Below, one piece after another: positions 3,589 to 13,239 of a stretch of 43,800 bases of DNA (position 1 is its first letter; every line of letters starts with the position of its first letter). The position numbers and the translations under genes were made by a program. Under the pieces are notes generated by a model. It saw only the letters and a program-made list of their open reading frames with translations. It had not been told where the DNA came from and made no database searches. Origin of the DNA: Oscillospiraceae bacterium (lineage in GTDB: Bacteria; Bacillota; Clostridia; Oscillospirales; Oscillospiraceae); assembly GCA_017465745.1 (NCBI GenBank), contig JAFTVM010000106.1, positions 1 to 43,800 on the forward strand, written 5' to 3'.

Positions 3589-3628
3589 ATCAAAATACAG
3601 CAATATATCATCTCGGATACTTGATGCA

Positions 3629-3793
3629 TGATGATAGCACTCCGCTGATGCGACAGTCGGACAGGTCTTATCCTGCCTGACCAGAAAGCCGTTCGCCTGA
3701 GCTTTCTTCGGCGACGATCCCTTTCCCATCCGCCCCAGCCCTGCGAAGGCCTCCCGGCAGCGGTACTCTTGATGCGACGCACCTCTATCATTT
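3629..3793 (-). promoter_or_regulatory. Lysine riboswitch (L box)
   Basis: Read on the minus strand, the leader shows the L-box consensus in order: GATAGAGGTGCG, AAGAGTA, GAAAGGGATCGTCGCCGAAG, a CTGG segment, then CTGTCGCATCAGCGGAGTGCTATC. The ends close a P1 helix (TGATAG with CTATCA). It is followed by a terminator and then dapA. Lysine binding is expected to favour termination and so repress dapA-ddh-lysA. Confidence 0.93.
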
Positions 3794-3813
3794 TGCTCTA
3801 TTCGGTTGCTTGC

Positions 3814-6862: not shown

Positions 6863-6891
6863 TTGAAAACATGGATTCACTATATTATAAT
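6863..6891 (+). promoter_or_regulatory. Promoter of the opp operon
   Basis: TTGAAA (6863-6868) and TATAAT (6886-6891) have a 17-bp spacer, giving a leader of about 125 nt before oppB. No riboswitch was recognised in that leader. Confidence 0.75.
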
Positions 6892-7021
6892 CTTTATAAT
6901 TGGCATGATACAGGATATTGACCAACTGCCGCCACAAACCGGGTTTGAATATCACATTCATAGACTGTATACAACCTATACAATCATCCGGTGACGGTAA
7001 TCTCAGGAAAGGAAGGATCCT

Positions 7022-7951
7022 ATGAATTCCAAGACATTATTATACATCCTCAAGCGCATTGCCCTGGCTGTCCTGACGGTCTGGGTGGTCATCACGGTGA
7101 CCTTCTTCGTCATGCGCGCCGTGCCCGGCGGCCCCTTCCTGGGCGAAAAGGCCATCTCCGAAGCCGCCACCGCTGCGCTGGAGGCCAAGTACGGCCTGGA
7201 CAAGCCGGTGCCGGAGCAGTACTTCACCTATCTCAAGGATATCGTCACCCGTTTTGACTTCGGCCCCTCCCTGAAGCTGCGCGGCCGCCAGGTCATCGAT
7301 GTGATCACCGAGAGCATGGGCGTTTCCATCAAGCTGGGTCTCACCGCCGCCAGCATCGCCCTGGTCTGCGGCGTTGTCCTGGGCGCCGTGGCTGCCCTGC
7401 GCCGCAATAAGGTCATCGACAAGGTCATCATGGTCATCACCACCGCCTGCATCTCCATGCCCTCGTTCATCATGGGTACGCTGCTGCTGCTGGTGTTTGC
7501 CCAGATGCTGGGGCTCGTGCCGGCCAATGGCGAAACGGCAGAGGGCCTGATCCTGCCCATCATCACGTTGTCCCTGTCCCCCATGGCAAACATCACCCGT
7601 CTGACCCGCTCGTCCATGCTGGACGTTCTGGGCCAGGACTACATCCGCACCGCACGGGCCAAGGGCGTCTCCCAGCTGAAGATCATCTTCGGCCATGCCC
7701 TGAAGAATTCCCTGATCCCCGTCATCACCTACTTCGGCCCCATGCTGGCCTACATCGTCACCGGCTCTCTGGTTGTCGAGCAGATCTTTGCCGTCCCCGG
7801 TATCGGCCGCTACTTCGTCAGCTCCATCACCGGCCGTGACTATCCCCTGATCATGGGTACCACCATCGTGCTGGCTACCCTGATCGTCATCATGAACCTG
7901 GTCAGCGACATCCTCTACAAGGTCGTCGATCCCAGAATCACCCTGGAATAA
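7022..7951 (+). CDS. oppB: Peptide ABC transporter permease, OppB/DppB type
   Basis: An inner subunit of the membrane channel of an oligopeptide/dipeptide importer. The 309 residues include an N-terminal transmembrane helix (YILKRIALAVLTVWVV) followed by FFVMRAVPGGPF, a signature of OppB/DppB proteins. The EAA-type cytoplasmic loop DYIRTARAKGVSQLKIIFGHALKN (about 205-228) contacts the ATPases, and the C-terminal end DILYKVVDPRI is typical. AGGAAAGGAAGGATCC precedes the ATG. It is the first gene of oppBCDFA, 12 bp before oppC. Confidence 0.94.
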   Translation: MNSKTLLYILKRIALAVLTVWVVITVTFFVMRAVPGGPFLGEKAISEAATAALEAKYGLDKPVPEQYFTYLKDIVTRFDFGPSLKLRGRQVIDVITESMGVSIKLGLTAASIALVCGVVLGAVAALRRNKVIDKVIMVITTACISMPSFIMGTLLLLVFAQMLGLVPANGETAEGLILPIITLSLSPMANITRLTRSSMLDVLGQDYIRTARAKGVSQLKIIFGHALKNSLIPVITYFGPMLAYIVTGSLVVEQIFAVPGIGRYFVSSITGRDYPLIMGTTIVLATLIVIMNLVSDILYKVVDPRITLE

Positions 7952-7963
7952 GGAGGTGCCGAT

Positions 7964-9031
7964 ATGAAGCTTAAGAAATATCCCGGTCTGAGTATGCACG
8001 TCGATATGGACGATTTCCTGCCCGCCACCGACGCGGAAAAGGCCTACATGGTACAGATGCGCCCCTCCACCACCTTCTTCAAGGACGGCATGAAGCGCCT
8101 GTTCCGGAACAAGATCGCCACCATCAGCCTCATCGTCATCGTGGCCGTCACCCTGGCCGCCATTCTTCTCCCCGCTTTCTGGCCCTACAGCTACGACACC
8201 ATGCTGGGCGTCCGTCCCGGCAAGCCCGTTGACGCTTCCTACAACAACCTGGCTCCCTTCGAGTACGGCGAGACCGAACTGGAGCGGATCGCGGCGGGCG
8301 AGGACGTGTTCCCCCATGTTTTCGGCACCGACTCCGCCGGCCGTGACTACTTCATCCGTGTGGTCTACGGCACCCGCATTTCCCTGGCCGTGGGCTTCTT
8401 CGCCAGCATCATCGTGCTGATCATCGGCATGACGGTGGGCTCCATCGCCGGCTACATCGGCGGCAAGGTGGACCTGATCATCATGCGCATCGTCGATATC
8501 ATCTACTCCCTGCCCGATATGCTGATGGTCATCCTGCTGGCCTCCGTCATGAAGGTCTCCCTGGGCCAGCTTATCGAGGGCACCGTCCTTGAAAAGCTGG
8601 GCAGCAATATGATCTCCCTGTTCATCATCTTCGCGCTGCTCTACTGGGTCAGCATGTCCCGCCAGATCCGCGGCCAGATCCTGTCCCTGAAGGAGCAGGA
8701 GTACGTGCTGGCCGCCAAGTCCACCGGCGCCAAGGCCGGCTGGGTCATCACCAAGCACCTGCTGCCCAACTGCATCAGCGTGGTGGTCATCTCCACCGCC
8801 CTGCAGATCCCCAGCGCCATCTTCACCGAGAGCTACCTGTCCTTCCTGGGCCTGGGCGTCAACGCCCCCATGCCCTCCCTGGGCAGCCTGGCCTCCGATG
8901 CCCTCAACGGCATCACCTCCTACCCCCACCGTCTGGTGATCCCCGCCATCGTCATCTCCCTGATCGTCCTGTCCCTGAACCTGTTCGGCGACGGTCTGCG
9001 GGATGCCTTTGACCCCAAGCTGAAGAATTAA
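7964..9031 (+). CDS. oppC: Peptide ABC transporter permease, OppC/DppC type
   Basis: Second channel subunit, 355 residues. The soluble N-terminal stretch of about 40 residues is longer than in many DppC proteins, and is followed by FRNKIATISLIVIVAVTLAAI (first membrane segment). The extracytoplasmic loop contains the conserved HVFGTDSAGRDYFIRVVYGTRISL. The EAA loop is near EYVLAAKSTGAKAGWVITKHLLPN, and the C-terminus is NLFGDGLRDAFDPKLKN. A GGAGG site precedes the ATG. It pairs with OppB. Confidence 0.94.
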   Translation: MKLKKYPGLSMHVDMDDFLPATDAEKAYMVQMRPSTTFFKDGMKRLFRNKIATISLIVIVAVTLAAILLPAFWPYSYDTMLGVRPGKPVDASYNNLAPFEYGETELERIAAGEDVFPHVFGTDSAGRDYFIRVVYGTRISLAVGFFASIIVLIIGMTVGSIAGYIGGKVDLIIMRIVDIIYSLPDMLMVILLASVMKVSLGQLIEGTVLEKLGSNMISLFIIFALLYWVSMSRQIRGQILSLKEQEYVLAAKSTGAKAGWVITKHLLPNCISVVVISTALQIPSAIFTESYLSFLGLGVNAPMPSLGSLASDALNGITSYPHRLVIPAIVISLIVLSLNLFGDGLRDAFDPKLKN

Positions 9032-9044
9032 GGAGGATGCAACT

Positions 9045-10040
9045 ATGGCAATGTTAGAAGTAAAAGACCTGCGCACCTCCTTCTATACCCCCGCAGGCGA
9101 AGTGAAGGCCGTCAACGGCGTGTCCTTCAACCTGGACCACGGCAAGGTCCTGGGCATCGTGGGCGAGTCCGGCTCCGGTAAGTCCGTCACCGCCTATTCC
9201 GTCATGCAGATCCTGGAAAAGACCGGCAAGATCGTCTCCGGCTCCATCAAATTCAATGGTGAAGAGCTGGTGGGCGCCGGCGAAAAGGAAATGAAGAAGA
9301 TCCGCGGCAACAAGATCTCCATCATCTTCCAGGACCCCATGACCTCCCTGAACCCCACCTACACCATCGGCCGCCAGCTGATGGAGGCCATCCTGCTGCA
9401 TACCAACCGCAACAAGAAGCAGGCCCGGGAGCGCGCCATCGAGATGCTGCGCCTGGTCAACATCAACGAGCCCGAGAAGCGCATGAACCAGTACCCCTAC
9501 GAGTTCTCCGGCGGTATGCGCCAGCGCATCATGATCGCCATGGCTCTGGCCTGTGAGCCTGACATCCTCATCGCAGACGAGCCCACCACCGCCCTGGACG
9601 TCACCATCCAGGCTCAGATCCTGGAGCTGATGCAGAGCCTGCAGAAGGAGCTGGGCATGGCCATCATCATGATCACCCACGACCTGGGCGTCGTCGCCCA
9701 GATGTGTGACGAAGTCATCGTCATGTACGCCGGCTCCATCTGCGAGCAGGGCACCGCCGACGAGATCTTCTACAACCCCAAGCACGAGTACACCAAGGGC
9801 CTGATCCGCTCCATCCCCACCATCGAAAACGATGGCCAGAAGCTGCAGCCCATCACCGGCACCCCCATCGACCTGCTGAACATGCCCGCCGGCTGCCCCT
9901 TCGCCCCCCGGTGCGACGCAGCCATGAAGATCTGCCTGCGCCAGCGCTGCGAGCGGATGCAGATCAACGAATGGCATCAGGCCGCCTGCTGGATGAACGT
10001 GAAAGAAGAAATGGAAAAGGAAGGAGGCGCGGCTGAATGA
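9045..10040 (+). CDS. oppD: Peptide ABC transporter ATP-binding protein, OppD type
   Basis: Cytoplasmic ATPase of 331 residues with Walker A GESGSGKS (about 39-46), Q-loop [13 protein letters not shown] signature FSGGMRQR (about 157-164), Walker [13 protein letters not shown] and switch His in ITHDLGVVA. The C-terminal oligopeptide-transporter extension contains the cysteine cluster GCPFAPRC...ICLRQRC, which matches the iron-sulfur-binding type motif of OppD/DppD. Its end overlaps oppF by 4 bp, so the two ATPases are translationally coupled and probably form a heterodimer. Confidence 0.95.
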
Positions 10041-11017
10041 GCGACGTAAAAACTCTGGTTGAAGTCAAGAATCTGAAGGAATACTTCAATATCACCACCG
10101 GCCTGTTTTCCTCCAAGCCCCTGAAGGCTGTGGACGACGTCTCCTTCGCCATCCGCAAGGGCGAGACCCTGGGTCTGGTTGGCGAATCCGGCTGCGGCAA
10201 GACCACCGTGGGCCGCACCCTGCTGCACCTGTACAAGCCCACCTCCGGCGAGATCTGGTTCGACGGCAAGCAGGTGGTCACCAGGAAGGATATTCTGGAG
10301 TACCGCAAGAAGACCGCCATGGTCTTCCAGGACCCCTACTCCTCCCTGAATCCCCGTATGACTGTCTCCGACATCATCGCCGAGCCTCTGGACGTCCACA
10401 AGATGTACCAGAACAAAAAAGAACGCCAGGAGCGCATCCTGGAGCTGATGGCCAAGGTGGGCCTGAACTCCGAGCATGCCAACCGCTACGCCCACGAGTT
10501 CTCCGGCGGCCAGCGCCAGCGTATCGGCATCGCCCGTGCCCTGTCCATGAATCCCGAATTCGTGGTCTGCGACGAGCCTGTCTCCGCCCTGGACGTTTCC
10601 ATCCAGGCCCAGGTCATCAACATGTTCGATGAGCTGCAGGAGCAGATGGATCTGACCTACCTCTTCATCGCCCACGACCTGCTGGTGGTCCGGCACATTT
10701 CCGACCGTATCGCCGTCATGTACCTGGGCAAGATGGTAGAGCTGGCTGACGCGGGCGAAATTTATGACCATCCCCTGCACCCCTACACCAAGAGCCTGAT
10801 GTCCGCCGTTCCCCTGCCCGACCCCAAGAAGGCAAGAGAGAACAAGCGCATCGTCCTCTCCGGCGATATCCCCAGCCCCCTGAACGCCCCCTCCGGCTGC
10901 CCCTTCCGCACCCGCTGCCCCTATGCCACCGACGCCTGCGCGGAATCCATGCCGGAATTCAAGGAGGTCTCCACCGGCCACTTCGTGGCCTGCCACAACA
11001 TGGACAAGATCAACTGA
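10037..11017 (+). CDS. oppF: Peptide ABC transporter ATP-binding protein, OppF type
   Basis: Second ATPase, 326 residues: Walker [21 protein letters not shown], signature FSGGQRQR, Walker [13 protein letters not shown], and [11 protein letters not shown]. The C-terminal [15 protein letters not shown] cluster is the usual oligopeptide-transporter extension. An AGGAGGCG site lies within the end of oppD. It is followed by 240 bp before oppA, with a large inverted repeat that may separate expression of the binding protein from that of the membrane components. Confidence 0.95.
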
Positions 11018-11170: not shown

Positions 11171-11257
11171 GCATAGTTGGAGCCAAAGATCCGGCCAAGC
11201 CGCAAAGGGAGGGTTTTTAGCGGTGCCTCAAACTAACATGAGAAAGGAACATGAAAC

Positions 11258-13057
11258 ATGAAGAAACTGATTGCGCTCCTGCTGGCCATCGTCATGGTTA
11301 TGAGCCTGGCTGCCTGCGGCTCCTCCAGCAACAACGAGACCAATCCCCCCACCGATGGCGACAACGAAAATGTCTCCACCGAAATGACCGCCGAAGAGAA
11401 GGCACTGGCTGAGGCTGAGATCCGCTACGCCATCGGCCTGCTGTTCGACCGCAACTACATCGTCGAGAGCGTTTCCCAGGGCGGTGAGCTGCCCGCTTCC
11501 TCCTTCGTCGCCATGGGCATGACCGACGCTGACGGCTCCGAGTTCTACCAGAACGCCGGCAACTCCGACGACTACATCGGCTACTTCGACGCTTCCGCCG
11601 AAGCTTTCGAGGACAACTACGCCAAGGCTTACGAGATCCTGACCAAGTACTACGAGGTCGACGAGCAGGGCATGCTGGTCAACTTCCCCACCCTGAACTA
11701 CATCTACAACACCAACGAGAGCCACAAGGCCATCGCTGAGTACCTGCAGGGCGCTCTGTCCGGCGTGGGCATCACCATGAACCTGGAGAACCAGGAATGG
11801 AACACCTTCCTGAACACCCGTAAGAACGGTGACTACTCCGTGGCCCGTAACGGCTGGCTGGCCGACTACAACGATCCCATCTCCTTCCTGGATATGTGGA
11901 CCTCCACCTCCGGCAACAACGACGTTCAGTTCGGCAAGGGCGAGCACGCCTCCGTCGCTGTCTACTCCCTGGATCTGACCGACCTGGGCTACGACGTCAA
12001 GGTCGAGAACGGCACCTGGGCCGAGACCTACGACGTGATCATCGGCCTGATCAAGACCTGCACCGATTTCGAGACCCGCTATGAGCTGATGCACAGAGCC
12101 GAGGACCTGCTGATGTCCACCGGCGCCATCGTTCCCATCTACTTCTACACCACCACCTTCATGCTGGACGACTCCGTCGACGGCTTCTTCTACAACCCCC
12201 TGGGCTACAAGTACTTCTGGAAGACCACCGTTAACGGCGGCACCGAGTCCCTGCCCGTCTGCATCGGCTCCGAGCCCGACACCATGGATCCCGCTCTGAA
12301 CTCCGCCGCTGACTGCGCCACCATGATCAGCCACCTGTTCGCCGGTCTGGCCAAGTGGGATCAGGATGCCAACGGCAACCTGGTCATCGCTCCCGACTGC
12401 GTTGAAGAGCTGGTCGAAGGCGTTGAGAACGAGGACGGCACCGTCACCTACACCTACACCCTGAAGGAAGGCCTGAAGTGGTCCAACGGCGAGCCCCTGA
12501 CCGCCAAGGACTTCGCAGATTCCTGGCAGCGCGTTATCGACGTCGTCGGTGACTACGAGTACATGTTCGACGTCATCAAGGGCTACTCCGAGGGCAAGCT
12601 GGCTGTCGCCGCTCTGGACGACCGCACCCTGGAAGTCACCCTGAACAATGCCGTTGCTTACTGGAACGAGCTGCTGGCATTCCCCACCTACTTCCCCGTC
12701 TACAACGCAGCAAACGTTGACGAGGCTTGGGCAACCGACGCTTCCACCTACGTTTCCAACGGCGCTTACACCATGACCGCCTGGGAGCACAGCTCCGTCA
12801 TCACCGTCGCCAAGAACGCCAACTACCATGCCGCTGACGATGTCACCATGGAAGAGATCAAGTTCTACCTGTCCGACGACGACAACAACATGCTGACCAA
12901 CTTCAAGAACGGCAGCTGGCTGGAGATCGACTCCGTTCCCACCAACGAGATGGCTTCCCTGAAGGTCGAGTACGCTGACGAGTACTACACCATCGGCCAG
13001 ATCGGCACCTACTATGTCTGCTGGAACGTCAACGAGCCCCTGCTGCCCCAGGAGTAA
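11258..13057 (+). CDS. oppA: Peptide-binding lipoprotein (SBP_bac_5 family), apparently circularly permuted
   Basis: A lipoprotein of 599 residues with lipobox LAAC (Cys20), expected to be anchored outside the membrane and to deliver peptides to OppBCDF. The domain order is abnormal. After a short acidic linker, residues about 54-325 hold what is normally the C-terminal half: IRYAIGLLFDRNYI, then YNTNESHKAIAE, then LENQEWNTFLNTR, then ARNGWLADYNDP, then IVPIYFYT and GYKYFW. Residues about 332-599 then hold what is normally the mature N-terminal half: IGSEPDTMDPALN, then LKEGLKWSNGEPLTAKDF, then ATYVSNGAYTM, ending with IGTYYVCWNVNEPLLPQE and a stop. In usual OppA proteins the last segment runs directly into the first. 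All parts are present once and in one clean frame. A terminator follows. The family call is firm; the permutation is read from motif order. Confidence 0.9.
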   Translation: MKKLIALLLAIVMVMSLAACGSSSNNETNPPTDGDNENVSTEMTAEEKALAEAEIRYAIGLLFDRNYIVESVSQGGELPASSFVAMGMTDADGSEFYQNAGNSDDYIGYFDASAEAFEDNYAKAYEILTKYYEVDEQGMLVNFPTLNYIYNTNESHKAIAEYLQGALSGVGITMNLENQEWNTFLNTRKNGDYSVARNGWLADYNDPISFLDMWTSTSGNNDVQFGKGEHASVAVYSLDLTDLGYDVKVENGTWAETYDVIIGLIKTCTDFETRYELMHRAEDLLMSTGAIVPIYFYTTTFMLDDSVDGFFYNPLGYKYFWKTTVNGGTESLPVCIGSEPDTMDPALNSAADCATMISHLFAGLAKWDQDANGNLVIAPDCVEELVEGVENEDGTVTYTYTLKEGLKWSNGEPLTAKDFADSWQRVIDVVGDYEYMFDVIKGYSEGKLAVAALDDRTLEVTLNNAVAYWNELLAFPTYFPVYNAANVDEAWATDASTYVSNGAYTMTAWEHSSVITVAKNANYHAADDVTMEEIKFYLSDDDNNMLTNFKNGSWLEIDSVPTNEMASLKVEYADEYYTIGQIGTYYVCWNVNEPLLPQE

Positions 13058-13080: not shown

Positions 13081-13113
13081 AATCCCCGCCTCTTCGGAGG
13101 CGGGGATTTTTTA
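13081..13113 (+). terminator. Terminator of the opp operon
   Basis: AATCCCCGCCTC, loop TTCG, GAGGCGGGGATT, then TTTT, 24 bp after the oppA stop. Confidence 0.92.
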
Positions 13114-13158: not shown

Positions 13159-13163
13159 CTTAT

Positions 13164-13239
13164 TGGTGCGGGCAACAGGACTCGAACCTGCACGCGCTCG
13201 CAGCGGAACCGAAAGGTGGTGTCACCTCAGGGAAGGATT
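13164..13239 (-). repeat. tRNA-Leu 3'-half-derived element, copy 1
   Basis: The minus strand ends in the variable arm, T arm (GGTTCGAGTCC) and acceptor 3' strand with CCA of a tRNA-Leu. About 47 nt nearly match the intact tRNA at 20314-20396. The 5' half of the tRNA is absent. In its place is a small hairpin (AGGTG, loop, CACCT) preceded by AAATCCTT. The Rrf2 stop codon lies inside this hairpin region. Copy 2 at 16170-16246 aligns over the full 77 nt. It cannot be a normal tRNA because the 5' acceptor strand and anticodon are missing. Confidence 0.75.

Follow-up and report, generated by a model that had tools for sequence, protein, structure and literature searches.

How does an oligopeptide-binding lipoprotein come to carry the parts of its family in the wrong order, in one open frame, directly behind the genes of its importer? 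The question is raised by the oppA gene of a 43,800-nucleotide stretch of an Oscillospiraceae genome (contig JAFTVM010000106.1 of assembly GCA_017465745.1; the whole stretch is called the window below). The encoded protein begins with a signal peptide and lipobox and a low-complexity stretch, continues with the segments that normally end OppA, and passes through a joint of about seven residues into the segments that normally start it. The locus contains the following features.

7022..7951, + strand: oppB, permease; best NCBIfam hits Opp3B/OppB, under the equivalog cut-offs
7964..9031, + strand: oppC, permease; best NCBIfam hits Opp3C/Opp4C, under the cut-offs
9045..10040, + strand: oppD, ATPase; best NCBIfam hit OppD, under the cut-off
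10037..11017, + strand: oppF, ATPase; best NCBIfam hit OppF, under the cut-off; PRK11308 at 410.3 bits (cut-off 408)
11258..13057, + strand: oppA, read as circularly permuted (type A), a 599-aa lipoprotein in one open frame
11258..11317, + strand: signal peptide and lipobox LAAC (Cys20), from the sequence and from 5' colinearity with the normal-order locus L109
11393..11962, + strand: block C1, residues 46-235, which in normal OppA stands after the N-half
11993..12238, + strand: block C2, residues 246-327, the normal C-terminal end
12221..12250, + strand: joint of the old ends, residues about 322-331
12251..13048, + strand: block N, residues 332-597, the normal N-terminal half
13091..13112, + strand: terminator-like hairpin and T run behind oppA (consensus match only)

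A sigma-70-like site ahead of oppB (6863-6891, 11 of 12 matches) is likewise a consensus match only. Past oppA on its 3' side, and in the opposite direction, lie genes for an Rrf2-type regulator, a cysteine synthase and an O-acetylhomoserine sulfhydrylase, which have no relation to the finding. Elsewhere in the window Rfam identifies a lysine riboswitch at 3627-3795 on the minus strand (RF00168, 81 bits), and positions 13163-13220 look by eye like the 3' end of a minus-strand tRNA, for which ARAGORN and Rfam make no call.

The order of the segments was established in three ways. SBP_bac_5 (PF00496) is the only Pfam family matched in the window protein at E values up to 0.001; it matches in two stretches (204.7 bits, cut-off 32.4), and along the gene profile positions 203-367 precede profile positions 4-213, so that the late part comes first. 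The family order is N - C1 - C2, whereas the order observed here is C1 - C2 - N. Using phmmer, residues 328-594 matched the N-half of solved OppA/DppE chains and residues 44-225 and 253-325 the C-half, the pieces matched in the chain of Bacillus subtilis OppA (8are) being 18-269, then 286-452 and 460-519. Finally, the mature window protein was rotated through all positions and each version scored against a profile built from 104 normal-order relatives. The native order gives two reversed pieces of 444.9 and 405.3 bits; the highest score comes from the rotation beginning at residue 327, a single piece of 849.7 bits spanning profile positions 4-561 of 562. Three normal-order controls, for which every third position was tried, gained at most about 1 bit on rotation. 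Among the six SBP_bac_5 genes found in the genome, the window gene is the only one with split, reversed hits, the other five being unsplit. Separately, two contigs of this genome (C84 and C104 of G000) have SBP_bac_5 hits with identical score and frame length, perhaps reflecting a duplicated or strain-variant contig.

The initial annotation had claimed that the family motifs of this OppA-type protein stand in reversed order, and the rotation scan, the order of the Pfam pieces and the phmmer matches to solved chains bear it out; the domain search that it had proposed returned the two partial SBP_bac_5 matches in reversed order. Its particulars also agree with what we found: a normal lipobox stands in front, each part occurs once in a single frame, the break falls behind GTYYVCWNV, and the linker between the old ends, put at about six residues, is short. 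Codon use is neighbour-like as stated, with a GC3 of 0.90 and 0.85 in the two halves versus 0.86-0.90 in oppB-F, and the full opp operon lies upstream, with oppBCDF at 7022-11017.

Relatives were then sorted with segment profiles N, C1a, C1b and C2, by which 196 distinct genes with all four segments were classified and other frames set aside. The normal order N-C1a-C1b-C2 accounts for 110 of these. The order of the window gene, C1a-C1b-C2-N (type A), is common to 36 distinct genes including the window's own, in answer to the look at relatives that the initial annotation had also proposed; C1b-C2-N-C1a (type B) is found in 26 and C2-N-C1a-C1b (type D) in 24. A further 32 frames, from additional loci, have the normal order. 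A fourth permuted order, type E, runs from the second part of N through C1, C2 and a joint to the first part of N. It is represented by one gene (L255), which a protein search of plasmid records located on a circular 215-kb record of Subdoligranulum variabile TSDC17.2-1.1; the gene stands behind oppBCDF (56-64% identical), and its rotation scan yields no single joined match, the two pieces meeting at profile position 128. A search of 300 genomes of the family with L255 as the query found no second type E gene among the 47 matches listed, none of which extends into the initial part of N. One protein thus occurs in five chain orders (normal, A, B, D and E), type E in one record.

Among 61 genomes of the window's genus, with its own among them, at least 14 have a type A-order match over nearly the whole query; G049 has a type A-order match as far as residue 565 and G058 a partial match in that order. 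At least five carry close normal-order relatives with pieces 62-77% identical, a count that leaves out more distant normal-order paralogs. Close unpermuted homologues include L031, 74% identical to the window protein, and L113, 88% identical to the type A protein L082 (aligned segments). A scan of named genome contigs covered the best 80 of 317 loci. Every named type A or B record has MAG or uncultured in its title, and animal guts are the source of many. Judged by title, the records belong to Bacillota, for the most part to Clostridia, with two type A genes assigned to Coriobacteriia. The type A genes L065 and L096, Coriobacteriia by title and of another phylum, have RRNFL leaders, which we take to be twin-arginine-like; directly behind the type A gene of L096 lies a second, normal-order opp locus. 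In one genome (G048) oppA genes of types A and D occur together (C153, C181). Incomplete frames were also seen: L029/L073 hold a type A-like gene whose frame is missing the leader, C1a and the initial third of C1b and which looks frameshifted or decayed, and L036 (G015:C63) is a 220-aa frame comprising the later part of N alone.

Comparison with normal-order loci at the DNA level shows that the halves are swapped in place. The window is colinear with L109 at 7007-11011 (83%, through oppBCDF) and again at 11238-11327 (74%, the ribosome site and signal peptide). Beyond this point halves of about 0.8 kb are exchanged, window 11412-12217 corresponding to L109 8851-9659 and window 12256-13048 to L109 8015-8810. 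The type A locus L082 and the normal-order L113 are similarly colinear for 4.2 kb into the signal-peptide region, after which halves of about 0.82 kb with a DNA identity of 80-81% are swapped, and L171 (type D) and L187 (normal) differ by the same in-place swap with the type D cut. At loci with over 3 kb of upstream sequence, oppB, oppC and oppD stand directly upstream in 18 of 18 type A, 18 of 18 type B and 1 of 1 type D cases, and oppF is listed for 17, 18 and 1 of them, respectively.

A link of 5-8 residues between the profile ends connects the old termini in each of the 86 type A, B and D genes. The lipobox pattern is present in 35 of 36 type A, 26 of 26 type B and 23 of 24 type D genes versus 97 of 110 normal ones, and the type A gene without it begins at a contig end. 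We calculated dN/dS for the eight closest pairs of each type, obtaining 0.10-0.17 for A, 0.05-0.17 for B, 0.06-0.20 for D and 0.05-0.16 for the normal order. As these ranges are similar, selection holds the permuted copies as it does the normal ones.

That the window genome is assembled in 122 contigs, with 7% contamination, lends some weight to the idea that the order was created in assembly from two tandem oppA genes. Such an artefact, or a dead gene, is nevertheless extremely improbable in view of the 36 distinct type A genes, many of them from different named projects, the in-frame joints and full-length open frames, and dN/dS values well under 1 for pairs of close relatives. Three readings were rejected outright: misassembly of the type A order is excluded by the number of distinct genes that share it, a pseudogene is contradicted by the low dN/dS in close relatives together with the full-length frames, and chance motif order is ruled out by the rotation score, the swapped blocks and the 36 same-order genes. 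The natural circular permutation proposed in the initial annotation is thus supported by motif order, rotation score, in-frame junctions, swapped DNA blocks and shared order. We put the probability at roughly 0.87 that the window gene is a genuine in-place circular permutation of oppA whose product is most likely a working lipid-anchored oligopeptide-binding protein for the oppBCDF importer.

Residues that contact the peptide in related proteins can be located in the permuted chain. W200 and D203 show no variation among 21 type A proteins and align with the WCAD of Salmonella OppA (1b05). In AliD, residues W498 and D501 hold the amino end of the peptide (PMC11192437, in excerpt); W200 and D203 were matched to them by the same spacing and via the 1b05 alignment, rather than by an alignment to AliD itself.

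How often the order has changed was estimated from trees. FastTree with 145 rows requires 11 order changes. IQ-TREE with 106 OppA rows requires 10, of which six concern type A (at least four forced by well-supported forks) and four type B (one forced). In a tree of OppBCDF with 59 rows, type A requires five changes, at least three of them forced, and type B forms one clade with a support of 94. Type A looks polyphyletic, and it is close to certain that the ends have shifted at least four times (A, B, D and E). The initial annotation had noticed neither the further circular orders B, D and E at this operon position nor that type A may have more than one origin. Constraining type A to one clade was rejected by the AU test for 51 operon rows (p = 3.6e-42), where the history of the operon need not equal that of oppA; it was rejected too for a hand-picked set of 43 OppA rows (p = 0.012), and for the 106 OppA rows the constraint was not rejected (p = 0.19).

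L082 is nested among normal-order genes in both the OppA and the operon tree, at forks with a support of 99. Its parts N, C1a and C1b are each nearest to the normal gene L113 and its C2 part to other normal genes, while its joint resembles the ends of its own clade plus about three residues. L082 is probably a separate type A event, seen in one genome: among the 4 genomes of its family no second one with the L082 order was found, and none in IMG/VR.

These data bear on the alternative that a single ancient permutation was followed by horizontal transfer and piecewise gene conversion with normal copies, so that permutation would not have been repeated. The unrejected type A clade in the AU test of 106 rows speaks for it, as do the single type B clade of the operon tree, although type B needs several changes in the OppA tree, and the likeness of many A and B joints (TTV[ND]G). 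We consider this history unlikely, given that L082 sits among normal-order genes in both trees, that its parts are closest to normal genes and its joint to the ends of its own clade, and that the differing cuts of A, B, D and E imply at least three further shifts even with A as one event. Within the type D group of the FastTree phylogeny lie two normal-order genes (L186 and L187), which may represent returns or repeated gain; the IQ-TREE set has few D rows. The wider reading, on which we are evenly divided, is that in gut Clostridia the oppA gene is permuted recurrently at its own locus, with at least four orders besides the normal one, several type A events and perhaps returns in the D group, the connectivity of the chain drifting freely while sequence, operon and leader are kept.

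Our best reading is that oppA has been permuted in place repeatedly, probably by duplication and trimming. At each permutation the mature part of the gene would be duplicated in tandem and in frame, and the outer pieces would then be lost; new ends would survive in surface loops already tolerant of length change, and the leader and anchor would stay in front of a rotated fold. The permuted chain is expected to take the usual two-lobe shape of cluster C, since the former N- and C-termini are adjacent and only 5-8 joining residues are needed. Of the two principal routes to permutation described in the literature, duplication with trimming is one (PMC3320104, in excerpt), and it fits the conserved leaders and joints.

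A duplicated intermediate was not found, as no segment occurs twice in any classified frame. Direct repeats at the junctions able to drive block exchange were not convincing in the window gene or L082, where there are short two-copy matches only. We also searched the flanks of the 86 permuted genes, up to 2.5 kb per side and less at contig ends, for remnants of a duplicate, and obtained matches in two: L096, with its whole second opp locus, and L082, with a 215-aa paralog fragment. The flanks of the window gene gave one weak reverse-strand match (E 0.06), taken as chance. With no duplicated intermediate, no convincing flanking repeats and one paralog fragment, the duplication route, which the initial annotation had put forward as well, is one that we infer. 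The fragment at L082:9757-10401 lies past a hairpin and T run, encodes the late part of another OppA (SBP_bac_5 profile 263-366) without an evident start, and is perhaps what remains of a tandem paralog. At L175 (G092:C12, 4089-7619) two tandem normal-order oppA genes share a reading frame, with 192 bases between them, an arrangement able to give rise to a fused duplicate.

The missing intermediate would suit another route, in which oppA split into two half-genes that fused in the other order, and the lobes are natural units for such an exchange. We think this quite improbable: no separate half-gene pair was recognised among the classified frames, the split frames among them have the look of frameshifts or contig ends, and both leader and ribosome site are conserved in their position.

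The positions of the cuts were compared with loop variability and lobe borders. In the normal-order profile the most length-variable loops are at positions 125, 478-482 and 283-284, and the median cuts of types E (128), D (466-488) and A (281-286) fall at these three; type B is cut at 371-377, in a less variable loop, with 30% of positions scoring as high. By alignment the type A cut falls between about residues 276 and 285 of Salmonella OppA 1b05. In AliD, lobe 1 comprises residues 29-296 and 583-617 and lobe 2 residues 297-582, and AliC forms a domain-swapped dimer through opening of loop 290-294 (PMC11192437, in excerpt). By this analogy, the type A cut would adjoin a connection that nature can open in another way. 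Because the chain passes from lobe 1 to lobe 2 right beside this cut, type A would retain a single covalent crossing between the lobes, against two in types B and D, and its anchor would emerge on the side of lobe 2.

This geometry raises the possibility that permutation was itself selected, because a lipid anchor on lobe 2 instead of lobe 1 would change how the binding protein sits over the permease. Cuts A, B and D lie at the lobe border or within lobe 2 by the AliD borders (PMC11192437, in excerpt), and tethering has been suggested as a possible reason for the permutation of another binding protein, TpMglB-2, by its authors (PMC4990184, in excerpt). We doubt that selection of this kind was at work, as type E has its cut within lobe 1 (the N-half), three of the four cuts just coincide with the loops that vary most in length, and closely related permease genes precede both permuted and normal genes. 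An argument that the N-half contains no cut, which would have favoured a move of the anchor to lobe 2, was overturned by type E.

The window OppA has the segments, lipobox, oppBCDF and Trp-x-x-Asp in common with normal SBP_bac_5 lipoproteins of cluster C such as B. subtilis OppA (8are), and differs from normal OppA/DppE in having the normal C-half first and the N-half last. The permuted genes pass as ordinary SBP_bac_5 members in domain searches, a blind spot illustrated by one type D protein that scores as a single full match. The initial annotation knew of no described permuted member of the OppA family, and our searches of open-access PMC, with subscription papers and preprints outside their scope, likewise found none. 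Permutation as such is known, and one permuted binding protein of another cluster has already been published: TpMglB-2 (Tp0684) of Treponema pallidum, a naturally permuted, lipid-anchored protein of 'Cluster Bc' with a crystal structure and glucose binding, whose topology is reported in Gram-positive, partly gut, bacteria too (PMC4990184, in excerpt). Both are lipid-anchored proteins with a natural permutation, TpMglB-2 a demonstrated and the window protein a predicted substrate binder. TpMglB-2 is a sugar binder of cluster B, whereas the window OppA belongs to SBP_bac_5, another family. The permuted region of TpMglB-2 resembles the unpermuted protein poorly (13% in the authors' alignment; PMC4990184, in excerpt), whereas permuted and normal OppA reach 88% identity over aligned segments.

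These genes offer what may be a rare natural experiment in rewiring protein chains that apparently still work, and they raise the question of whether import depends on where a peptide-binding protein is tethered and on its two-strand hinge. Natural permutants have mostly been compared across old, strongly diverged families; the permuted orders of DNA methyltransferases belong to distant subfamilies. With permuted and normal copies this similar behind orthologous permeases, the steps of permutation and their cost or benefit become directly testable. DNA methyltransferases have natural circular permutations with documented intermediates (PMC3320104, in excerpt); unlike theirs, the orders of oppA differ at one conserved operon position among close relatives.
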